From assembly GCA_022749755.1 (NCBI GenBank), contig CM040448.1, positions 2,600,481 to 2,664,480 of the forward strand: a stretch of DNA of 64,000 nucleotides, given 5' to 3'. Positions 3,840 to 56,150 of the stretch are shown here, piece after piece (positions within the stretch are counted from its first letter, which is position 1; each line of letters opens with the position of its first letter). The notes beneath the pieces are model-generated. The model worked only from the letters and a program-made list of their open reading frames with translations. It had not been told where the DNA came from and ran no database searches. The translations under genes were made by a program, and so were the position numbers. The DNA is from Azadirachta indica (taxonomy: Eukaryota; Streptophyta; Magnoliopsida; Sapindales; Meliaceae).

Positions 3840-6800
3840 ATCACCGAAAAGCGGGAGAGAAAGAGGAGAGTGAGGCATCGATCACCGTCGTTCATCTAAC
3901 TTTTCCACCCCCAATCTTGACCGTACGTCTAACCGACGGCGGGGCCTCCTGCTCGTCCCGACCGCCGTCCGATTCCCGATCTCACTAATCTCCGGTGAGT
4001 TTTCCGAATTTCTGCCTTTCTAAATCCTGTTACTTGCGTTTGTTTCTTGAGAAAATCCATGATAGATGAAAGAAAACATAGAACTAATAGGACCGTGAAA
4101 TTATAGACATTTAAGGCGGGAACACTGCTGTCATGCAAAATTTCAACGTCTGTTTTCAATATTTGTCGTGTATCTATTTATTCCATTACTTAACAACAGT
4201 TGATACGGTTTTGATCGTCTCTGATAATTTTATCGGAGGATAAATTCTAAAAATTTGTAATATTATGTTTCTTCATTTGTAAGAGAAGACTGATTAAAGG
4301 TGACGATTATACTGGTTGTTGTTTTGATCTACATTTCCGCTGCCAATATATATATATATATATATATTGTTAAAAGCATTATTTTCTTTCTTGAATTGCT
4401 TGATTGCATATCCAGTTACTTTTTAAATCTTGTTAAGAGTGAGGATAATTTTTTTAAAGACGTCAGTCGCTCTTATTACAATTTCTAAGGTTTGTTGTCT
4501 TTTATTATTATATTTAGGAGAAAGGGACATTGGTTCCCTGATATTGGTGTAGTAAATTTGACCTCAATTTATTATTATTATTTTCAATCAAATTATCAAA
4601 TAAGCATGAAACATTGCAGTCAGTGTCGTAGCTTTAGGTTGATATACAAGTTGTACAAGATATCAAATTAAACAAATGAAGATTAATCATTTTAAGCAAT
4701 TGTGTTTCACTTTGTGCTGCTGAAAAAGTATACATAGTACAAGTAGATGGTTAAGTGATTTTTGATGAGATTGATTTGTCAATTGGAGTCTATAATAAAT
4801 TTAGGTCAATTTCCTACTCCTAAATTGAGACAATTGACTCTCAAGGAAGGAAATTATTTGGCAATTTAGATGGTTTGCCCAAGGGACGTTTTTTGTTTTT
4901 CCTCATTGGCAAGCGTATGTGAGATGTAAGGATAGTCCAAGAACATTGTATAGTTATTGCATGGTTGGATCAGGTTGTGTGCCTGATTTTCTTTATTTCT
5001 CATTTTTTGTTCAATGACACTCAATTCCTGTTGCACATGAGATCTGATTTCCAAGCACGTAGTATGATTTGCTGGAGACTTCATTTCTTGGTTATTTGAC
5101 AGCTTTTGGTTAATGAGTTGAAATAAGTTTGAATCATAACATGTTTGGCCTATTATCTCCTAGGGATTTGGCTTGCTTGTTTAAATGTATGGTGGTTGAG
5201 TGATTAGCACTTCATTTTTCAAATTTTGACTCAAAAAATATCACTGTTATTTTAAATGAATGTAGATAGTAAAGTTTTGGCTCCATTCTACATGATCAGA
5301 ATTCAAGAAAATATTAACTGATAAAGAAACTTTGTTTGACACTTATTTTTTTGTGAATTATTCTTTCTTACTGCATTCCTAACAATTCTTTTGTCCATCA
5401 TTTAGTCAGCATTATCAGGTGGCTCCTCCAATGCAGCAGTTTCATTAAGTTTTTATACTTACTTATTGAAATCTGTTTCAATATGAGAATCATGGAAGTA
5501 GACTGTATTCTACTGGTCTGATTATGGTTGTTTACGGCACAGACGTTTCCCTGCAATTGTTGCCAGCATTTGAGTTTGGCGTCTGCTTGAGAGAGAAGCT
5601 CTCTGCTGCCGCCTTCTCTGCTGCTGGCTTTAAACTTTACTGCTGCGTCTTTTCCTTTCACGTCTCCTGAACTGGACTGCACTGTAAATACTCAGATGGC
5701 TGTTGCAGCCTTTAGGGGATGCATTAATGGTGAGCATGGTGGGAATAAGAGTATGGAAAGAAAACCTTCTGGAAAGAGGCGTGTGTTTGTTCAGACTGAG
5801 ACGGGCTGTGTTTTGGGTGTGGAGTTAGATAGGAGTGACAATGTCCATACAGTGAAAAGGAAATTGCAGCTTGCCCTGGACGTGCCAACTGAGGAGAGGT
5901 CACTGACTTATGGGGATATGGTGCTAAAGAATGATCTCAGTACTGTTAGAAATGATTCTCCACTTCTTCTTGCCCGAAATTGTATGCACAGAAGTTCATC
6001 TACCCCATGTCTCTCGCCTACCGGCAAGGATCTGCAGCCCAGAGATCAAAGCGGTCCGATTGAGATATTGGGATATTCTAATCACTTCTGCAGAGCAAAA
6101 CAGTTGGTGAGGGAAATTGTGAAGGCGATGAAGATGGGGATCGATCCAATTCCTGTTCGCAGTGGACTTGGAGGTGCATACTATTTCAGAAATTGCCAAG
6201 GTAAGAATGCTGCTATTGTGAAGCCAACAGATGAGGAACCCTATGCTCCAAACAACCCAAAAGGTTTTGTTGGCAAAGCTCTTGGGCAGCCAGGCCTGAA
6301 ACGTTCAGTGCGGGTTGGAGAGACTGGATTCAGGGAGGTAGCGGCTTACCTTCTTGACTATGATCACTTTGCCAATGTACCCTGCACTGCCCTTGTGAAG
6401 GTCACACACTCGATTTTTAACATCAATAATGGGGTGAGTGGAAACAAGATTCGAGAGAGGAAGCAGGTCAGCAAGATTGCATCATTGCAGCAGTTCATCC
6501 CTCACGATTTTGATGCAAGTGATCATGGGACTTCGAGCTTTCCAGTTGCTGCTGTTCATAGAATAGGGATCTTAGATATTCGGATTTTGAACACAGATAG
6601 ACATGCTGGAAACCTTCTGGTCAAGAAGTTTGATGAAACTGGGAGTTTTCGTCAAGTGGAGCTTGTACCTATCGATCATGGCCTTTGCCTTCCAGAAAAC
6701 TTGGAGGACCCATACTTTGAGTGGATTCATTGGCCACAGGCTTCAATTCCTTTCTCAGAGGATGAGCTTGAATATATAAACCTGCTTGACCCATTTCGGG

Positions 6801-7690
6801 ATTGTGAAATGCTTAGAATGGAGCTGCCGATGATTCGAGAGGCATGTCTCAGGGTCTTGGTTCTTTGCACAATTTTTCTTAAGGAAGCAGCATCTTTTGG
6901 TCTCTGTCTTGCTGATATAGGTGAGATGATGAGCAGGGAATTTCGAGGCCATTGGGACGAGCCAAGTGAGCTTGAGTTGATATGCATTGAGGCAAGGAGG
7001 TTATTAGGGGAGAGAAAGATGCTCTCTAATGTTGTAAAAGCAGCAGAGAGTGAGGAATTTCAGTTCGATATTGACTGTGAGGAAAAGGAATTTGATTTGA
7101 CCTTGAATATGGAAGAGAAATTGGCAGCCAAAAGTTTCTCTCTTGGGTCCAAAGGTGGCAATGGTCGAAATTCCCTTTTCAGGCTGGAGGAGAGTGAGGA
7201 GGAGGAGGCAGAGATTGAGGGGAACACGTTACTGTCAAAGATAGATGAATATCCTGGCCCTCTGCAGCATAGGGCTCTGTCTTTTTCAAAGTTGTCAACA
7301 TCTGTGAAAAACATGAGCATTGGTGAGAAGAGTTGGCGACATGAGGGAACTATGCAGAAAAGCGGATATTTGGCTGGTACTTCATCTGGAAATAGGAGTG
7401 TGAATGAGCAGCTGCCTGCAAGCACTAGCTTCGTGAAGGTGGCTGAGATGAATGAAGAGGAGTGGGGGCAGTATCTTGAGAATTTTCAGAAGTTGCTGTA
7501 CCCAGCTTTTACCAATCGTAAATTGGTTACTGTAGGTCAGAGGCAGAAACAGAGGCTTGGAACGTCATGCCGGTTTTAGGGAATTGATATCGCAGATTAT
7601 AGGAATTGGAACTCTAAACTTTTAAGATGTGTGGTTCTGCAAACTGCAAATAATGTAGGTAACCTTCGTTCAGTGATATACCCTTGAGAG
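3840..7690 (+). other. PI4KG: PI4K-gamma transcription unit with 5'UTR intron (inferred)
   Basis: A GC-richer block at about 3840-3991 ends in a good donor (CCG|GTGAGT, GT at 3992-3993) and looks like a non-coding first exon. The intron would end at a strong pyrimidine-tract acceptor near 5405, or directly at the AG before the ATG at 5696. The start of transcription and the choice of acceptor are inferred. If the 5405 acceptor is used, several upstream ATGs lie in the leader (for example near 5430 and 5483) and could reduce translation. A leader intron with one coding exon fits this family. Confidence 0.5.
5696..7579 (+). CDS. PI4KG: Phosphatidylinositol 4-kinase gamma (type II, ubiquitin-like domain)
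   Basis: One uninterrupted reading frame of 627 residues, about the usual length for the Arabidopsis gamma 5/6/7 clade. A single ubiquitin-like domain covers roughly residues 28-92 (RRVFVQTETG to SPLLLARN). The PI3/4-kinase-like catalytic domain follows, roughly residues 150-430, with the catalytic-loop motif NTDRHAGNLL near residue 298 and IDHG near 325 as the metal-binding DFG equivalent. The C-terminal 200 residues are acidic and Ser-rich (an EESEEEEAE stretch). Established for the family: similarity to type II PI4-kinases, and members reported to act as protein kinases at membranes or in the nucleus. The first ATG is used; an in-frame ACG 12 codons upstream lies where relatives, from memory, start with Met. 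Confidence 0.93.
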   Translation: MAVAAFRGCINGEHGGNKSMERKPSGKRRVFVQTETGCVLGVELDRSDNVHTVKRKLQLALDVPTEERSLTYGDMVLKNDLSTVRNDSPLLLARNCMHRSSSTPCLSPTGKDLQPRDQSGPIEILGYSNHFCRAKQLVREIVKAMKMGIDPIPVRSGLGGAYYFRNCQGKNAAIVKPTDEEPYAPNNPKGFVGKALGQPGLKRSVRVGETGFREVAAYLLDYDHFANVPCTALVKVTHSIFNINNGVSGNKIRERKQVSKIASLQQFIPHDFDASDHGTSSFPVAAVHRIGILDIRILNTDRHAGNLLVKKFDETGSFRQVELVPIDHGLCLPENLEDPYFEWIHWPQASIPFSEDELEYINLLDPFRDCEMLRMELPMIREACLRVLVLCTIFLKEAASFGLCLADIGEMMSREFRGHWDEPSELELICIEARRLLGERKMLSNVVKAAESEEFQFDIDCEEKEFDLTLNMEEKLAAKSFSLGSKGGNGRNSLFRLEESEEEEAEIEGNTLLSKIDEYPGPLQHRALSFSKLSTSVKNMSIGEKSWRHEGTMQKSGYLAGTSSGNRSVNEQLPASTSFVKVAEMNEEEWGQYLENFQKLLYPAFTNRKLVTVGQRQKQRLGTSCRF

Positions 7691-22000: not shown

Positions 22001-22118
22001 CCTTAATTTATATTATTTATTTATATTTAAAATAATAGCTCATCAGCACTGGGCACAGAAAAGCCTTTTCCATTTTTAATTATAGAATTTATAAATATAG
22101 ATGAGATAAATATTCATT

Positions 22119-22192
22119 GGCCTATTAGCTCAGCTTGTTAGAGCGTCGTGCTAATAACGCGAAGGTCGCAGGTTCGAGACCTGCATGGGCCA
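22119..22192 (+). tRNA. tRNA-Ile (AAU), copy 1, D-loop altered
   Basis: A 74-bp cloverleaf. The acceptor stem GGCCTAT pairs with ATGGGCC (one U-G), the anticodon stem is TCGTG/CGCGA, the loop is CTAATAA with anticodon AAT at 22153-22155, and the T-arm is GCAGG TTCGAGA CCTGC. The D-loop reads AGCTTGTTAG where the other copies have GGTTAG, so one of the invariant G18-G19 bases is lost. This could weaken D-T loop contact and the A-box. A T-run about 10 bp downstream could serve as a Pol III terminator. There is no intron. Confidence 0.9.
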
Positions 22193-22618
22193 AAAAATAA
22201 TATTTTTAAATTTTTAGATAATTCTAATAAGGACTCAGTATATTTTGCTTTATATCATCCAGAACCATGATGTTTTTCAGATATATTAAATGGACGCATT
22301 TGATTTATATTATTATCTAATAATATTTATAAAAAGACCGACTTGTTCTCATATTAAATTTTGAAATATTTTTATTATTATGGTTTGTATGATACAATTG
22401 TATATATTGTCATTAAATGTTTGAAAGGAAAAAAATTCCATTATCCTTATAACTTACAAATGTATTGGTAACTTCAAAGAAGTACTAAAAACTCATTAGT
22501 AACTCAAAAAGCATTAAAAATTTATCAGTAACTTAAAAAAAATATTATTACACATAAATATCTCTGATCCATTCATCTTCTTCTTCCTCACCAACTAAAC
22601 CATTGAATTTGAAACACG
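22193..22618. other. Spacer between tRNA copy 1 and G3, likely G3 promoter
   Basis: AT-rich. Contains an imperfect direct repeat of about 30 bp (about 22465-22552), described separately, and a C/T-rich leader-like stretch just before the ATG. Confidence 0.5.
22465..22552. repeat. Approximately 30-bp imperfect minirepeat upstream of G3
   Basis: Three units built around GTAACT(T/C)..AAA..TAAAAA. The same minirepeat occurs upstream of G4 at about 32890-32990. Confidence 0.6.
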
Positions 22619-30824: not shown

Positions 30825-32129
30825 GAAACATCAGACCTATGATGGCATTGCCTCTAACCAATGAGTGACGGTTGATATTAAGTATTGTTGAGTCATCTAA
30901 CCTAACATTCCTTCTTTTCATTCTCTTTCATATATTCATTCATTTGTAACTAACGGTTTGCATGAGTTCACCAAGTTATAGATTATACCAGGTTTAACAA
31001 TGAAGAACCTTACATCATCAATTTTGACTGTTTTGAGGAAATTTAATGTTATCGTTGTCTAACATGATTCTAATGAAAAGCATGTCAAATTTCTACTTCA
31101 TTGGATGGCTTGTGTGGTGGAATGCATCCTGATAACCCATTAAACACTGTTTTACGACGTAAGAGGAGTTTTGCAAATTGTTGGAGAGAGTATTGTTTGT
31201 TTATGTTGAATAATAAGGAGGGTTTATGATATATAATGAAGTAGGGAGCTGTTATTGCCTGCCTATTCCTACAAATAAAATGAAACCGTAATGACAGTAA
31301 ATTTCAAAAAATTTAAGACAAAATCTGGCCTACAAAATATTATTAAACAAACAAGTATAAGTGTATATGGATGATTAATAAATATTATTAGCTTTTAAAT
31401 ATAAATAAACAAAAATTAAACATAAGCGACCAATTCTATTTATATAAATTAACGTGATAATATTATATTATTATTATATATCTTATATATTTTACATTTT
31501 TATTTTACTATCTTAAAAATGTAATCTTAAAAATGTAGAACATGTGATTCTAATATAATATTATTAATGTTATTGTATATTTAGAGATAATTTTTATCTA
31601 CAACGTTTTTTATGGTTGATCCCGTTATTATGTTTCTTCTATACATTTGACAAACCGCAAACCCCGTAGAGAGGAATTCAATTTTTGTACAAGAAATAAA
31701 GCCTTACTTTGGCCGTTAAATAAGATTTGGTTAGTAGAGAAGAATTTAATAAAAGATGGTGTTATAAATATAAAAAAAAGATGTTAAAAAGTTTAAGATA
31801 AACAGTGTTAATGTGGGGAAGTATATTAATTTCGGATTTAGATTCAATTCTTACTTTTTCTATCCTAAACTTTTAAAAATATATTAATACGTGACATGAT
31901 TTAAAATAAAAGACTGATATTATATTTTAAAAACTATACTAATTAATCTTAAAATTATTTTTTTAATATAATAAATTGTGGTAACTAATTAATAAAAATT
32001 TCTAAAATGTAACCTTATCCTTCTATTTTAAATCATACCATATATCAATAAATTCTTAAAGGTTCAAGACAAAAAAGATTAGATCTTGATCCAAGTTCAT
32101 TAATTACGTGGTGAAAATTTTAATTGAGT
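30825..32129. other. SWIM gene 3'UTR and AT-rich spacer
   Basis: The first few hundred bases are probably 3'UTR. From about 31270 the DNA is AT-rich without coding signal. Confidence 0.5.
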
Positions 32130-32203
32130 GGCCTATTAGCTCAGTTGGTTAGAGCGTCGTGCTAATAACGCGAAGGTCGCAGGTTCGAAACCTCCATGGG
32201 CCA
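32130..32203 (+). tRNA. tRNA-Ile (AAU), copy 2, T-stem mismatch
   Basis: A 74-bp cloverleaf with anticodon AAT at 32164-32166, the normal D-loop GTTGGTTAG, and the same GGCCTAT acceptor 5' strand as the other two copies. The T-arm reads GCAGG TTCGAAA CCTCC: one C-C mismatch in the T-stem and G-to-A in the T-loop. Because TTCGA is kept, the B-box may still work, but the tRNA fold is weakened. A T6 run two bases downstream is a good Pol III terminator. Confidence 0.88.
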
Positions 32204-33097
32204 ATATTTTTTCTGATGTTAATTTTGGTGAAAACATCTGAATCCCTAAGAATTTTCATAATTTTAATTAAGGAAATAATTTCCAAAATGTTAATTAACT
32301 TTACAAAACCTCTCACAAATTTTATATTAAGCTAGTTTTTTGAATTTTTTTGAATTTCAGATGTCAGTCAATTGATGATGAATTTAGTTTAGATCGCAAT
32401 ATTATTGCAGGGGAGATTCATTTCAATCTCGATTAATATGAAAAAATATTCAAATATTAAGATGTGTTTATTTTTTTAATTTATATTTGAAAACATGTTA
32501 TGATATAATTAAGTAAAAAATTTTAATTTAAATTTAAATAATCAAATATGTAAATAAGTACTGTATTTTTATTTAGTTTTAAAAACACAGTAACGGTGAA
32601 GTTTTTAATTTATGTTAATTTATTTATATTTAAAAGCTAATAATATTTTATTAATTATCTATCTAAGCATCTTTGTTAGTTAGTGATATTACGTAGGACT
32701 AAAATTTTTCTTCATTTTTGAAATTTATTGTTGTTACAGTTTCATTTTAATTGTTCAAAAGTGTTTTTCATTCACCCTTTTAAATAATATTTAATTGTGC
32801 AATAGAAAATAATATATTTTACAAAAAATAAAAAATTCAATTTTTTTAGATAAAATATTTATTTGAAGTAAAAAGTTCATTATTCTCGTAACTTAAACGG
32901 TTTATGGGTAACTTAAAAAAGTATTAAAAATTTATCCCTAACTTAAGAAACTAATAAAAATTTATTTGTAACCTAAAAAAGGTATTATGCATTAGTATAA
33001 ATTTGTCTAAATTTGTCTGAAACATCTTGTTCATCCTGGCCAATTAAATAGTATGATCATTCTTTCTTCATTGATTATATTCCATTGAATTTGAAAC
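32204..33097. other. Spacer between tRNA copy 2 and G4
   Basis: AT-rich with no coding signal; the right end resembles the G3 upstream region and holds the shared minirepeat. Confidence 0.5.
32890..32990. repeat. Approximately 30-bp imperfect minirepeat upstream of G4
   Basis: Three units of GTAACTTAAAAAAGTATTAAAAATTTAT type, the counterpart of 22465-22552 upstream of G3. Confidence 0.6.
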
Positions 33098-37900: not shown

Positions 37901-38128
37901 ACATGAAGACGAAGGAGAAGAAGGGATGATTAAGGAATCCTCTCTTCATCTAATATTTCTCTAATTTTCTTTTTTAAGGAGATTATGACATACATAGATC
38001 ATATAGAGTTTAAATATTTATTGCCTTTTACAATTTTAGTCAGCTACCAAAGCGATTGTTCTGTTTTATGTCAACTATTAAACAAAACCATTTACATTAA
38101 TATGCTTGGTTGAGAAACTTTGTCAATT
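37901..38128. other. G5 3' flank before tRNA copy 3
   Basis: Short AT-rich spacer, probably with the G5 3'UTR. CAA just before the tRNA (TTTGTCAATTGG) fits plant tRNA start sites. Confidence 0.4.
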
Positions 38129-38202
38129 GGCCTATTAGCTCAGCTGGTTAGAGCGTCGTGCTAATAACGCGAAGGTCGCAGGTTCGAGACCTGCATGGGC
38201 CA
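38129..38202 (+). tRNA. tRNA-Ile (AAU), copy 3, intact
   Basis: A 74-bp cloverleaf, anticodon AAT at 38163-38165, normal D-loop (CTGGTTAG) and fully paired T-stem GCAGG/CCTGC. It shares the GGCCTAT acceptor strand (a U-G pair at position 5) with the other two copies. This is the best candidate of the three for a working gene. Confidence 0.95.
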
Positions 38203-39413
38203 ATTACTGTTTAATATATTTTCTTTATGATAAAATAATATTTAGATCCCTAAGGTTTTACATATTTTTATATAAGGATGTACATTTCTCTTTATATCAT
38301 TTAGATCCCAATCAAAAATAATTTTGTAATATAATTTTTCAAAATTAGACCTTATTCCTCTTCTGAATTATATATATATTTTTTCTTTTTACATACATCT
38401 AGATGCAGTATTCTTGCTCATAATGTAAGGTCTAATGAAACACAGATAACAAAAGAGTCGTGAGTTTTTGCCTCGATATGTGATATTTTTTATATATGGC
38501 TTGTAAACATAAATATATGTATAATATTTAATAGTTAATAATCTTATTTTATAAGTTTTAACTTTAAGACACATTATCTTAATCACAAATATATTTTATA
38601 TGATATAACCTTTTTTTCAATACAAAGTTTCTAAGAAAGTTTGTATTTATTTATTTTTCACTTAATTATTTATACGATACCATAGTCATGGAGACCACTT
38701 CTAATCTACAGTTTGATAAAATATGAATTAATGATATTATATATTATTGGTTTGAACTGTGATGATATCATATACATTATTATATATTAAGTGATAAACC
38801 ATCATTGAGCATTAGCATATATGTTATATGCCCATACTCTAAGATTTAATGGATTATTATTATTATTATTATTATATATCTAAAGCCAACTCAGGCCAGC
38901 ATACATAAGTGCATTAATTTGATAGCAAATAAACCAGAAAAATTGGGATTCTCTCCTTATATGATGTCTTTTTTAAGTTATTAAAAATCTTATTTTATTA
39001 AGAATTCAATATAAACAAATTACATTATAAATAGAAGAGAGCGTGAGAGAATTGTCGAAGAAAGAGAATTGTCTATTATTATTATGATGATAGTGTAGGA
39101 TTAAAATTTAATTATTTTCTATTTTTATTTAATAACAATTATATTTTATTTGAAAAAGAAAATCGGATTAAAAAAGAGCATCCAGCCGCCCGCTTTAGGT
39201 ACACGTCAAAGTTCCATTAATTATGATGGTATTCATACGCGAAAATTATAGTGAAATCTGCAAATTCTAATGTTCAAAAAAGTCAAAAGATGGGATGAAT
39301 CGAGGATTTTTCCTAACTTTTTTTCAAAAAAGGAAAGTATAGAAAAAGGCTTTATAATTTTTTTAAAAAAAAAATCTTAATAAACAAACCATCAACATAA
39401 TAGTTTAATAAAG

Positions 39414-44999: not shown

Positions 45000-46588
45000 T
45001 CAGTGCCGAGGCTCGTGATTGTTGATTGGAGGCTTGCGGCCAGGCTTAGACATTCCTCTGTAATCTTTCTGCATCAGGTTCTCAACATCTTTAGCCGCCA
45101 TAAGAAACCTTTTTGTTTCTTCAATATCTCTCAGATGATCATCAGCATCAAGAGGTTCTTGGGCGACTAAATTTTCAGACATGGAAGAGCTTTCCAAGCT
45201 GGTTATAGGTTTCACTGTCTTTGAATCTTGAGGTTGCATTTGCTTGGAGTTCGAGAGAGACACAGCTGGCTTACTCCTAGGTATTCCCAAGCTTGCAGTT
45301 CTCAATGTCTTGCGGTCCAACATGTTGATATTCTTCCTCTGTTGTGACAACATAAAGTAGTGTGAAATGTTAGATACTAATAAGAGGTAGCTGGCTAGGT
45401 TAGTCAAATAAAGTAACCTTTTATTGTGAATTGTGCTGATTTCTCGCTACAGTAAGATTCCTTAAAGGTTAAGGTTTTCTTTTTGGGTAAAGTTTGTGTT
45501 CATATGTTATGTCTGCCTGTGAAAGTGTGTGCGTGTAAGATAGTAATAGATAATCACCTGATCATCATCTTGATTGTGATCAAATCTTTGAAAAGACTTC
45601 TTTGAAGCTTCACTACGGCTCTTTCCTGCATTAAAAAGGAACAGTCATGTGTGATGCACCGTAGGTTATATATTTAATTAACTTGTTCTACCACAACTCA
45701 CATACATACATCCAAACTTTTGCAACAACATATATATTCTCACAAGTAGCTGATCAAGAATACGAAAATCCATTTTATACACAACAAAAGAGTTTCTGGC
45801 GAATACAACAGCATGATACATATAATTCTAGCTTGCTAGACCATTTACTATAAGGCTACTAAGCTAGCTATATATAAGGCTGCAGACAAAATTAGGGATT
45901 ATCCCAAAAGTGTACTTTCACTGATTTGGATCACTCAGTTATGTTTAGGAGGATGGTGTTTAGGCCCATGATAATCAGAGTTGAAAGCTACAAAACCAGC
46001 TGCATTATTCAACTTATGACCACTTTTATAATCAAATTTCCTTTTCACACATAAATCTCCTCTTCCTTCAAACTCAAATTTTCCATCAGAACGACTTGCA
46101 CCTGAAATCTTCGAAGTCTCAAATTTATCCATCGCCTTTGGCTCCTTTTCATACTCTTTCCAAAGCATATGTGCCGCCATTTTCCTTCCTTGAAGCCACA
46201 GTTTCCCCATGCTGAAGCTAGTAACACCATGATCATCAACAAGTTCCTGCGTGCGTTTCTATTTTTAGGTCATGACTATACACTAATTCAAAGAATAGAC
46301 AAATGATCGATGTGTTACACGATCAAAAATCAAAATAGATGCAACAAGTTTAGCCTACCTTTTGAGCAGAAACACCTTGTACTTCTCGATCACTTGCAAG
46401 TGCAGTTGCTTCATCTAACAAAAGGGTAAAATAATTAATTAATTAAGATCATAAGCGCAACCTCCACAAAATCAATGGAGAAGAAAGCATTTTTTACCTT
46501 GAGCGAGTGCAAAAGGGAAGTCTCTTACACCATGCATAACAAAGAGAAGCCCTAATAATATTATGGTTAATAGCCTTATGTTCACCAT
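45000..46588 (-). CDS. RGF/GOLVEN/CLEL peptide precursor, isoform B (alternative 3' end)
   Basis: Proposed minus-strand exons 46588-46498 (shared signal peptide), 45625-45558, 45338-45000. Phases match exactly (exon 1 ends in phase 1, the 68-nt exon accepts phase 1 and leaves phase 0), giving 165 residues. The C-terminus carries DYRGMSKPGRKPPINN (from residue 145) and five extra residues. This has the family's Asp-Tyr, Pro and KPPI-N pattern but differs from isoform A. The 310 bp between the isoform A stop and the 68-nt exon contain no signal-peptide exon, which is why sharing of exon 1 is proposed. A further in-frame option is exon 2 (46414-46359) joined directly to 45338. The peptide end is clear; the splice model is inferred. 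Alternatively it is a tandem gene that has lost its first exon. Confidence 0.6.
45935..46588 (-). CDS. RGF/GOLVEN/CLEL peptide precursor, isoform A
   Basis: Three exons on the minus strand 46588-46498, 46414-46359, 46246-45935; junctions are GT-AG and in phase; 152 residues. Residues 1-29 form a signal peptide (IRLLTIILLGLLFVMHG). A variable, basic and charged pro-region follows. The last 13 residues, DYHGPKHHPPKHN (140-152), match the RGF/GLV consensus: Asp-Tyr for tyrosine sulfation, Pro residues for hydroxylation, and a final His-Asn at the stop. Family role: a secreted, sulfated peptide sensed by RGFR/RGI LRR receptor kinases that maintains the root meristem and affects gravitropism. A second Asp-Tyr (KFDYKSGHKLNN) lies about 25 residues before the peptide and looks like a degenerate motif. 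Exon 1 can also be joined in frame to the isoform B exons. Confidence 0.88.
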
Positions 46589-49500
46589 TTTTTGTAGCGA
46601 TTCTTCTGTATTTTTGGGGAGTATTTTTTTTTTTTTTCAACGAAATCAAGAGAGGAACCTTGCAAACCTAGGGTGAGCTTTATAGAGAGAGGTTCAAACC
46701 AAGTCAAAGCTAGGGTTCCGACACCTGCCTATATATAAAATATTTCTTCTGCACACAAACAATATAAAACTGAAAATTTAGAACTAAAATATTTAATAAA
46801 TTAAGAAACAGAAAACAATGTTCTGTTTCCCTTTGAATTTGGTTTTATCATTGAACAGGACCATTTTGGCATGGTCTCGAAGTGCACATTTAATATCGTT
46901 TGAATAGAAAGCATATATGTGTTGCCATGCATGCAATTAATATATACATGTAAATACAAGCATATCCGTGGAAATTTACTCAATTTTATCTTATATAATG
47001 GACAATATTCTAGGACTTTCTGCAGCAGTTCATGAATCCGAAAACAAAAAAAATGTTGCTGGACCACAAAGTCTTCCCCAAAATTTCTAGCAGTTTTCTC
47101 ATTTTCCAAATGAAATATTAATTAATTTTATCTACAGTTCCAGTTGGCTACCTGATTATGGTTTGGTATATATCTACTCTATATCGTAGCTTTGTAGCTA
47201 TTTTTAAATTAAAAAATTAATTAATAATGTTTAGTTTTCGTGAAAATCATGCTTTGAAGCTTAATTAAGTTGTTTAATATTAGATTATTAGCTTATTTTA
47301 AATGTATTTACACTAATGAAAGGAGCCTTTGGGTTGGAAACATATTTAGATAGTAGGGTCAAACTTCAAAGTATACAAAAGTCTTAGTCAGAGATTCGGT
47401 CTAAGTGGAAATTTTATGAATAATAAAATAAAATAAAAAATGCTATAAAATTAACAATTGGATTCAACTTCCATTGGATACCCTATTAGGGTTTAGGCAA
47501 ATATTTTCTTTCCCTATAATTCCTAAATCCAAAATTTAAGCAAAAACAGTAGTGTGAGGTCTGGAATCTTTCTGATGATCATCTGTATGCATTGCTTCAC
47601 AATTCAAACTTGATAATCCATTTATATTGGTCATTGTTATTAGTCCTAACTAACGATATAATTAATGCTTAACATTATTAACAAAAATAACCATGACGAT
47701 TTCAAATTTTCTTTTTTCATGATGAAAAATAATTATTCATTGCTAATTAAGATAATTAACAAAAGTACTTCCTTTTATAGACATTATCTCTATAACCTAG
47801 TTAGAAGATAAGTATTCCCATTACATATACATATATAAATAAAAGAAACTTATTTAAGTGAAAAAAGGGTCATTAATTCTACAAGTAAAAGAGTTAGAAT
47901 ATCGTTGTAATCGGTGAAAAGTTGAGGGTGGTGAATTAATGAAGAAAATAACATGTATAGTTCCCAAAGAGGAAGAGAAAGAGGAGCATGAGCGTGAGCA
48001 TGAGCATAAAATTAAGAGCTGTGGAACATGGCAAGTGATTGTGCATAGAATTTCTAAATCACATGAACTTTATTTTATAATAAATTATTAATTATTATAA
48101 ATTGTTTAGTGTTACCATTTTAGAACACGAGGGCAGGGGCGTGTCCTCCAACTTGATCCTTGTGATTTTCCCTTGAGAATTGCGTTTTGTGCTACTAAGT
48201 CGGTTCTTTGTAATTTCTTCGTTTTCATCTGATCATTTTTGTACAAATTAAGAGGCTTCACTTTACAGCTGATTGATCATCGAGCCAACTCAAATTGGAT
48301 AGACCAAAAACAAGCTAGCATGCACCGTGCCCAAAATAAATAAAAAGTATAATCTATAAGCACTTATTTCACTATATAATATATATATATATGCTCTCAC
48401 TTCAAAACAATGCTGCTCTCTTTCCGTTCTTTCCTTTATATCCTATAAAATTAAACGATTAATTGCTGTAAGCAAGCAAGCAAGAAAGCCACATGTTGCA
48501 ATGCTCACACTCCAATACAACACTCTTCTTGCGTTAATGCCTTTTTCCTTCTTTAATTCTCTATCAAGTTACTTAGCAAGATAAGTTATGATCATCATGT
48601 CCTTTTTCTTTCTTTAAAGCTCCGTAAACGAGCTTTGGACACATGGAGACTAAGTATGGCTCCATTTACCAAAGTTATGTCTTCTAAATTTACTAATTAA
48701 TTAAAATATATTCATTTTCATTGTATATTAAGTGTCTATATATAGTTTAGCTAGTACTAATTAACTAGATGATAATGATTATAATCTTTGGTCTTTGTGG
48801 GTTTAGGATTTGTATCAATCTTGTACGGGTTTGTAGCTTTTGATTTCTGGGGATTCCAAGTTTCACATGGATGATGAAAACTACTGTTTGGATATGCGAT
48901 AAGAGTCATGTTACGGTCCATAAAATTGTCCGACATAATCTTTAATATTTTGTCATAATTTTTAAATTTTATTAAAGTTTCTTCAATATATATAATTCTA
49001 TAAGTTGTCTATTGCTACGAAAGAACTGAAAAAAAATTTTTAAAAAAAATATACAATACGATTTCATCTACTTTAACCATATGGATATGATGGATGTATT
49101 GTCATTTTAGCACTTTGATGTTCAATTTTCAAAGAAATTAAAATGGTTTTTTTTCCTTTAATAAGGACATTGTCACATGTACGCTAGTATCATTTTTATA
49201 ATTTAATTTAGAAGGGCATTCCCAATATTATATTGGGACTATTTGATATTGTCATGAAAATATTCGAGAACCCAAGAAAAGAAAAGATTCCTTTTAGACT
49301 AGCTTTTGGTTAATTTCGGGTTAATTTTCTTATAAAATTTTCCTCAAATAAAATTTTCTTATCTTTCCACCCATCCCCACTAATTACTTTTTATTTTCCT
49401 ACTTACTTTTATGTTCGTTTGTTTTTATGAAAAATTTAATATTCTTTAAATTAGATATAGATATATATATAATCTCATAGCATTACTCAAAAATACTTTA

Positions 49501-54288: not shown

Positions 54289-55584
54289 TCAGTGGATGGA
54301 GGCATCAAATCGTGGCTCATAGAAGCAGACCTGGCTGTTATATGACTGAAGAGCACACCCAGCAATCCAAGACCAAACCTTTTTATCCACATCATAAAGA
54401 AGGCCCTTTCCCTGGTTCCAGGATGTAAAACAGATCAAATTATCCTGTCCAAAGCACTCAAATCTCTCAGCTGATAGTCTCAATAAAGCTCGAAAATACT
54501 TTGGTGGCATCCTACTTATCTCTACCCACATAATCTTTGAATGATCCAATTCCCAAATTCTCATGCTCTGGAGAGTACTATAGAGACCAATCCTTCCAAC
54601 TAGAAACAGACGCTTTTGTGTACCGGCAACCAAATACCCATCTAACAAGGACCGTGGAAACTTAGCCGGAATGTGTTCCCAGTAACCTGTGTCTAGCCGG
54701 TACATCATTAAACCAAGCGGCGAAAGAGTTTCCAAATACAACCTGGAGTCACAATAGGCCATCTTTGAGGAGCAAAGATTAACTGCAGGCATTATTTGGT
54801 GAACAGACCATCTGTCAAGTTTTGAATCATACACTTCAGTGGGCAATGACTTGTCACCATATATATCACTAGTTGCAATCACTCTGAATGATCGGTCTAC
54901 TCGATCAACAACCATTATCAACTGTCTTTGCTGATTATAATGCATGCTCGGCAATGTCCTCCATGTTTGTGTAAGTGGATTACACACTAATGTTTTGAAA
55001 GTTAGCCCATCAAGCCCAGAAAAACAAACAAGACCACCTGAAGAACCAACCAACCAGAATGCCCACTGAGGCAAAAAATTAAATGGAATCCTATACCATG
55101 TCTTCAGCGGCAAGCTAAACACTGAGCATTGTGGTGTCTGAGAGTTCTTCCAAAATGTAAGAAGACAAGGCCCATGAGATGGCACTTGAGAGTGGAATTT
55201 AAGAAAACTAGTGTCCTGAAGAATCGAATTCCAACGTTTACATACAGAACGAAGCCGAAAAATCATAAAGGGAGGAACCCTAGCCAAAATCTCATTTAAC
55301 AAGTCTTCAGGCAGCATTGCCCAAATGTTATCCTCCATTTGGATATCTGGGTGGACTGCTTTACCAAATGTAGCAGCCGTTTCCTCATCTAAACCACGAG
55401 GCCTGGTCTTAACCACCTTTTGCCTAGAAGGGCTTGTATTTCTCGTCCCGACACGACCCATTGGACTTGTATTCCGAGAACCACCACCCCTGATAGGAGA
55501 CACCTGCTTAGGACATCTCTCTTGGGTATTAGATACAGTAGATACCGCAGACCCAGAATCCGAAGTTTCAGAAACACCATCCAT
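54289..55584 (-). CDS. F-box/kelch-like protein (At5g15710-like)
   Basis: Single coding exon, 431 residues. The N-terminal 80 residues are Ser/Thr/Arg-rich with the repeated RNTSP motif ([18 protein letters not shown]). An F-box covers about residues 83-125 ([33 protein letters not shown]), followed by a kelch-like/galactose-oxidase-type C-terminal domain with repeated strand patterns ([38 protein letters not shown]). It should act as the substrate-binding subunit of an SCF ubiquitin ligase; the target is unknown. Start: the first ATG in the frame (55584); an upstream in-frame TTG is ignored. A leader intron is likely, with a donor CAAAG|GTAACC on - near 56046. Confidence 0.93.
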
Positions 55585-56150
55585 GGTAAAAACCCTCAAA
55601 GAACTCAATTAACCAAATACCAGATATGCTCTATACCAACTGCATACTCTGATTTCACGTTTTGCGCACCAAAAGATCAAAACTTTCAAACTCAAATGCT
55701 GAATTCAGTAACAACCCAATAACAATTCTGGTACAAACACCAAATACAGAGTCTTAATTCACTTTTCAGACACCAAAAGATCCAAACTTTCGAGCACAAA
55801 TATTGATTTCAGACCTCAAACAACAATACACCCAGTTCCAAACAACAAACCCCAAACAAATATCAACACCAACCGACACTAAACTTATTCCCCAAAATAC
55901 CTAACTTTTAGTCAGATCCCCAAATGAACCTCTTCAAAATATGATAAAATTATTCAAATAAAAGCTAAAAAAGAGCTACAGAACAAAGATCAATTGAGAA
56001 TATTATAAAGATTGAAGCTTTTGAGGATTTCAGACGGTGGGTTACCTTTGAATTCAAGAATCAGCAATCTGAGTTTTGGCTTTAGCGAGAGGTGATAGCT
56101 TTTTATCAGAAGTTAAACAGAAGGCAAATGGACATAGAAATGAGAGAAGA
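55585..56150 (-). promoter_or_regulatory. F-box gene 5'UTR with probable leader intron
   Basis: On -, a donor CAAAGGTAACC at about 56046 suggests a non-coding exon at roughly 56047-56150 and an intron reaching towards 55640. The acceptor cannot be fixed. Open frames on + at 55325-55722 are shadows. Confidence 0.4.

Follow-up and report, generated by a model that had tools for sequence, protein, structure and literature searches.

Introduction

Genes of the RGF/GLV/CLEL peptide hormone family with two alternative peptide ends were described in spruce by Strabala et al. 2014 (PMC4016512), where the two-ended CLEL layout was reported for CLEL14/CLEL22, CLEL18/23/24, CLEL15/25 and CLEL20/26 (this paper and the others below are cited from the portions of their text that were available). 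In that paper the mechanism was called not known in other plants, the splicing of Arabidopsis CLEL was stated to leave the peptide unchanged, and spruce CLEL16, which is related to the alternative form, was reported to be closest to AtRGF4. H/R pairs were recognized by Furumizu and Sawa 2021 (PMC8329595) only in gymnosperm lineages, possibly of independent origin and unconserved with each other outside the mature peptides, and their frequency within and outside gymnosperms was posed as a question. Here a locus of this type is reported from Azadirachta indica, in a window of 64,000 nucleotides (C9:2600481-2664480, the whole stretch of DNA that was analysed) of a genome of 280.8 Mb in 21 contigs. 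The minus strand was found to contain one signal-peptide exon followed by an H-type and an R-type RGF end, and the locus is with high probability, as judged from its sequence, a two-ended precursor gene in which the choice of H or R would be made by splicing at an internal donor. A preliminary description of this DNA had supposed the arrangement to be undescribed; the spruce loci have the same layout.

In the available text of a survey of the RGF family in 24 species (PMC8708909), splicing was not mentioned and one RGF domain was given per protein, and one splice variant among the Arabidopsis GLV proteins was noted in PMC4526923 with no detail there. Nothing of the two-ended kind was found in the available text of PMC9066070, PMC11756074, PMC13074997, PMC4750175, PMC5641559 and PMC10638237. 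No angiosperm report of a two-ended RGF gene was found among the papers listed by the literature searches, subscription journals and bioRxiv lying largely outside their reach.

Structure of the locus

The features of the locus were as follows, with positions of the window; the C6 and C4 paralogs are other loci of the same genome.

46498..46588, minus strand: exon 1, with the start codon and the signal peptide (MVNIRLLTIILLGLLFVMHGVRDFPFALAQ); 91 nucleotides, ending in phase 1, donor GTAAAA
46359..46414, minus strand: exon 2, in both forms; 56 nucleotides
46102..46246, minus strand: exon 3a, in both forms, carrying the GRKM motif; 145 nucleotides, phase 1 at the internal donor
46096..46107, minus strand: internal donor TTTCAG/GTGCAA (cut at the slash, GT at 46101-46100), proposed H/R switch point; also in the C6 paralog, none in the C4 paralog
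45935..46101, minus strand: H-only extension of exon 3 up to and including its stop codon, part of an intron in the R form; similar in protein to relatives and the C6 paralog
45938..45976, minus strand: H-type RGF peptide DYHGPKHHPPKHN, resembling the AtRGF1-3 peptides tabulated in PMC11534595
45558..45625, minus strand: exon 4, R form only, acceptor TTTTTAATGCAG; 68 nucleotides
45000..45338, minus strand: exon 5, R form only, with the stop codon; 339 nucleotides
45018..45065, minus strand: R-type RGF peptide DYRGMSKPGRKPPINN, 16 residues, like AtRGF4/GLV3 DYPIYSKPRRKPPVNN in the table of PMC11534595

When the minus strand was read and spliced by script, exons 1, 2, 4 and 5 were found where the preliminary description had placed them, their borders being GT/AG and their phases matching, and its two complete RGF/GLV/CLEL ends after one signal-peptide exon were likewise recovered. 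The H exon, which is exon 3 left unspliced, spans 46246-45935 and follows the acceptor ...CGCACGCAG. The frames, checked by script, gave an H precursor of 152 amino acids and an R precursor (exons 1-2-3a-4-5) of 232 amino acids, the latter extending past DYRGMSKPGRKPPINN by a short tail. Exon 1 is common to both forms, with comparable starts in models of Citrus, Pistacia and Quercus, and its N-terminus was strongly hydrophobic (best 12-residue Kyte-Doolittle mean 3.14), as looked for in the signal peptide of an RGF precursor.

Both ends contained a near-C-terminal peptide of 13-16 residues with a DY start and a PP.(H/N)N end, as in the Arabidopsis table (PMC11534595). The R sequence, in the 165-residue form of the preliminary description, gave a Pfam GLV1-2 match below the cut-off (E 0.4), no Pfam family match was found for the H sequence, and PF27951 was precomputed on related database proteins. 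The R peptide reads SKPGRKPPINN here and KPRRKPPINN in P0001 (a 93% identical relative), Citrus and Acer, so that PGRK for PRRK is an Arg to Gly change within the presumed hormone. The recurrence of both ends, in relatives and at a second locus of this genome, is more than chance, and a real two-ended RGF/GLV/CLEL gene on the minus strand is very likely from the sequence evidence.

The internal donor and the proposed splice choice

An in-phase donor inside the H exon, overlooked in the preliminary description, was found 145 nucleotides into it (ATTTCAG/GTGCAAGT), and the cut leaves phase 1, as exon 4 requires. As in the loci of Strabala et al., an alternative donor is thus present inside the terminal coding exon that holds the first peptide, in this locus and in the C6 paralog, and farther downstream an exon for a second, different CLEL peptide lies in phase with the same signal peptide. 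Against MAG/GTRAGT the internal donor scored 6 of 9 matches, and the donors of exons 1, 2 and 4 scored 7, 7 and 8; in the C6 paralog the internal donor had 6 matches, the exon 1 donor 8 and the exon 2 donor 6. A weak donor in an exon that is able to end the message is what would be expected of a regulated choice, and it may also be a site of little use.

One promoter and exons 1-2-3a would provide the signal peptide and the pro-region. With the donor in exon 3 unused, the RNA would be read to the in-frame stop and yield the H-type hormone DYHGPKHHPPKHN; with the donor used, the H end would be spliced out as an intron and exons 4 and 5 joined, yielding the R-type hormone DYRGMSKPGRKPPINN. As the H end falls within the intron of the R form, no single RNA could encode both ends. 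An RNA with this intron kept and exons 4 and 5 spliced would place the H stop ahead of a junction, and genuine H messages are therefore expected to end before exon 4, so that cleavage and polyadenylation ahead of exon 4 would yield the H form. Both RNAs are presumably made in Azadirachta indica in a regulated ratio, and the mature peptides, tyrosine-sulphated, would act via RGI/RGFR receptors. The exons, phases and peptides were read directly from the DNA, and the donor position and both ends were seen to recur in models of relatives and in a paralog.

Protein models of relatives

Three protein searches gave 51 distinct proteins (P0001-P0051), one of the searches having scored its best 7998 candidates. 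The R end was carried by 44 of the 51, four of these being R-exon fragments (P0001, P0008, P0020 and P0040; P0020, which the script had put in the class 'other' owing to a motif match in its tail, was reassigned by eye). The other seven contained the H peptide and no R end, and six of them end there (P0009, P0010, P0011, P0012, P0045 and P0051). Of the remaining 40 R-type models, all of which extend upstream of the R exons, 23 proceed after (I/N/T)SG with sequence other than the H-only segment, 15 overrun the SG point (SGA...) and two differ (P0018 and P0041); the models are proteins only, and splice positions are inferred from them. The GGRK-like motif of exon 3a was present in all 40.

The 23 models, which are redundant entries (for example six from Populus), belong to 15 genera, namely Citrus, Quercus, Pistacia, Castanea, Carya, Juglans, Prunus, Populus, Vitis, Macadamia, Manihot, Morus, Diospyros, Punica and Handroanthus, which we take to be nine plant orders. 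The orders looked up were Proteales for Macadamia, Ericales for Diospyros, Lamiales for Handroanthus and Ranunculales for Stephania, the last being among the 15 overrunning models. H-only-like coding was found in the overrunning models of Vitis, Populus, Prunus, Malus, Theobroma, Quercus, Acer, Citrus, Pistacia and Stephania, nine of the 15 having been aligned to the H-only segment. RefSeq 'LOC' models commonly rest on RNA-seq.

Closely related models were found to end in either way. The R-type tail DYRGMPRRKPPINN closes the model of Pistacia vera, LOC116140797 (P0006), and the H peptide DYHGPKQHPPKHN closes that of P. integerrima, Pint_18910 (P0011); over the 93 residues up to EISG there are 3 differences between them. 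A further relative was found to have H and R open reading frames 91% and 93% identical to those described here, each on a contig of 3599 bases, probably the same one. In an alignment of 16 chosen R-type sequences the split-codon glycine was invariant and its serine nearly so, an invariance that adds little as the sequences were mostly picked for the SG junction. Where named by their source, the R-type proteins were mostly 'uncharacterized' or 'hypothetical' and are therefore easily missed. Both ends and the donor position are thus found again in the models of relatives, and there are signs in the protein sequences, from at least 15 genera, that this layout is widely conserved in eudicots.

These models also bear on the route that had been proposed for the R form in the preliminary description, in which the signal-peptide exon is spliced directly to the 68-nucleotide exon, or exon 2 to exon 5, and the shared pro-region is skipped. 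The phases match in both cases, and the 46498 to 45625 join and the 'third path' from exon 2 to 45338 are in frame as had been stated, which is true for any exon set with such phases. None of the 40 upstream-bearing R-type models fits either join, since each retains the GGRK-like motif that exon 3a contributes; no such form was returned when the direct-join protein was itself used as the search query. The direct joins are thus highly improbable; of the earlier proposal that one promoter supplies two hormones, the shared promoter and signal-peptide exon for alternative ends were retained and the proposed junctions were not.

Paralogs in the same genome

One further R-end locus, at C6:14719411-14719590 (E 0.007), was found when the genome itself was searched by protein similarity. 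This copy was found to contain a signal-peptide exon of 88 nucleotides, an exon 2 of 80 nucleotides and an exon 3a of 142 nucleotides with the donor TTTCAG/GTGCAG at the same position as in C9, followed by the H end ...MAGFTAFNADYHVPKSHPPRNN; its R exon, of 254 nucleotides and with exons 4 and 5 fused, ends DYAAHGAARHKPPINNNEPLSQDHMLP. The H and R products were both in frame. As both the C9 and the C6 copies have two ends, the layout is older than their duplication and has been kept in both.

The neighbours of the two copies were collinear but inverted, with three anchors over some 60 kb, which suggests that the copies arose by an old segmental or whole-genome duplication. One anchor was the following gene.

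5591-7579: PI4-kinase-like gene, open reading frame of 662 codons; duplicate at C6:14759782-14761578, beside the C6 RGF copy

The PI4-kinase-like pair, which has a Pfam match and anchors the duplicated block, was 61% identical over 609 residues, and a third gene pair beside both copies gave 73-84% over three segments, each of 24-30 residues, at the end of the sequence compared. The remaining C9/C6 matches comprised a set that resembles retroelements and is not in collinear order (C9 2697292-2700656, C6 14746272-14749164), and short segments of weak similarity. In a tree of the R tails the C9 copy groups with Citrus (97/92); the duplication is left undated by this tree, in which the C6 branch is long and 13 of 17 inner branches stay open.

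The C6 copy also bears on the reading that two tandem RGF genes are present, of which the second has a separate promoter and first exon. The gap ahead of the R exon contains a TATAAAA string, and a tandem pair of RGF genes would be nothing unusual. The 309-nucleotide gap after the H stop was scanned for ATG with a phase-1 GT and no signal-peptide-like exon was found in it (best 12-residue Kyte-Doolittle mean 1.46 vs 3.14 in exon 1), in agreement with the earlier remark that the R unit has no such exon of its own; most R models of relatives have counterparts of exons 1-3a, and the C6 copy shows the same layout as C9. Two tandem genes are therefore extremely improbable.

A third paralog was found on the minus strand at C4:11961582-11964761 (protein-search match at C4:11963082, E 0.009). 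Its exons share the phases of the C9 copy (1, then 0), it has the H end DYRAPRHHPPKNN, and at the split-codon site it reads AGT GGC AGT, with GGC for GGT, so that the internal donor is missing there; no R motif was found within 1.5 kb beyond its H end. On this sequence comparison the C4 paralog is a natural control for the donor. In three other R-type genes of the genome no H motif was found within 1.5 kb. Exact motif scans of the genome found HHPPxHN at 5 places and RKPP-I-(H/N)N at 4 places, and among these only the C9 locus had both ends within 1.5 kb to each side. This motif census is incomplete, the C6 and C4 loci, which have differing endings, having been missed by it and found by protein searches.

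It may also be that one end is a relic, with only H or only R made in Azadirachta indica and the other decaying. The R peptide has PGRK here and PRRK in the relatives, the C4 paralog shows only an H end in the stretch read, and the H region of Stephania looks degenerate. Both frames were intact with GT/AG borders in C9 and in C6, and both reading frames are closely matched in the relative with the 3599-base contig. A relic end is thus very unlikely.

Points weighing against a splice choice between H and R

Several observations weigh against a splice choice between H and R at the internal donor. The weakness of this donor is compatible with a poorly used site, and the switch in Azadirachta indica is predicted from DNA and database protein models. 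The models are mostly predicted, the extent of RNA support for each is not visible, and none of the retrieved genes has both isoforms annotated together. A donor beyond SG is used by the 15 overrunning models, so the donor may vary or the predictors may err. One H-bearing model, P0050, continues 52 residues beyond the H peptide; P0050 and P0051 were weak matches (E 0.004 and 0.02). The models of Theobroma and Stephania read through the H region into R, and the H end may be degenerate there. The C9/C6 differences by codon position lean to third positions in the last 26 aligned H-end codons (5/6/12), but those of the H-only segment (18/21/23), the R-only segment (34/30/38) and the last 26 R-end codons (9/8/9) were not clearly coding-like; this signal is indecisive, like the ratio of nonsynonymous to synonymous change (dN/dS), because the copies are very diverged.

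The overrunning models may be prediction errors or may stand for a third product, a single protein that holds both regions. In P0035 (Theobroma) and in P0047 and P0049 (Stephania), FVAF.ADY precedes the R end, which would give two DY motifs in one precursor.

Upstream region and other features of the window

46678..46720, minus strand: probable shared promoter block, CGGAACCCTAGCTTTGACTTGG... and TATAAAG; partial match upstream of the C6 paralog

The TTGAC core in this block is presumably W-box-like. Blocks common to C9 and C6 were found upstream of exon 1 at similar distances from the ATG, namely TTGCATGCATGGC (13 bases, about -350, E 0.004) and GCTTTGACTTG (11 bases, E 0.056), and the best C9/C6 match in the gap before the R exon was 9 bases (E 0.27). 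The upstream blocks are weak sequence evidence for a single shared promoter.

Three tRNA-Ile (AAT) genes were found on the plus strand at 22118-22193, 32129-32204 and 38128-38203, with a spacing of 6-10 kb, and nothing beyond them was found in the window by Rfam at gathering thresholds and ARAGORN. An F-box protein with beta-propeller/Kelch matches was found on the minus strand at 54289-55608, in one open reading frame of 439 codons.

Discussion

H-type RGFs were reported to act in root meristem upkeep, RGF4/6/9 in gravitropism and RGF7 in immunity (PMC8329595, PMC11534595, PMC3764427). In the in vitro work cited in PMC8329595, binding to one receptor was stronger for H-type RGFs than for R-type RGFs overall, and the idea of different receptor preferences, raised in the preliminary description, has partial support from this literature. 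Given the reported differences between H- and R-type peptides in receptor affinity and role, a choice made by splicing would alter the message sent out under one promoter. The eudicot case supplies an exact proposed switch site, a second copy in the genome and a paralog without the donor, and it bears on the question left by Furumizu and Sawa (PMC8329595).

Among the known systems, Arabidopsis RGF4/GLV3 (AT3G30350) has a 16-residue R-type peptide, DYPIYSKPRRKPPVNN, which shares the RKPP(I/V)NN ending with the R end described here, but it was tabulated with a single peptide (PMC11534595); its loss gives gravitropic defects (PMC3764427). Arabidopsis RGF2 and RGF3 (DYWKPRHHPPKNN and DYWRAKHHPPKNN) have the H-type ending found in the H end here and in DYRAPRHHPPKNN of the C4 paralog, but one peptide was tabulated for each (PMC11534595). 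PROSCOOP10 is likewise one plant gene with two secreted peptides, whereas these come from different regions of a single precursor and not from alternative ends (PMC9784617).

The gymnosperm pairs of PMC8329595 are nearer, the H and R precursors of one species sharing N-termini, possibly by alternative splicing. The spruce CLEL loci (PMC4016512) are alike in that their ends lie about 1 kb apart, as against 911 nucleotides here, and unlike in that they are from conifers only and have the donor AG^GTA where CAG/GTGCA was found here. No gymnosperm-named entry was found in the profile search among the best 7998 candidates scored. The Azadirachta indica locus is, on its predicted structure, a known layout that is new here for eudicots, extending the conifer design to eudicot flowering plants. 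A common origin with the spruce loci is attractive, as the same kind of switch and an RGF4-like second end would be found in both. It can be proposed tentatively, with a chance that we put a little under even, that an H/R splice-switch gene was present in the seed-plant ancestor and still works in conifers and many eudicots, the single-ended RGF4 (R) and RGF2/3 (H) being its split remnants. If true, this would be a hormone-identity switch about 300 million years old, hidden by the model plant Arabidopsis.
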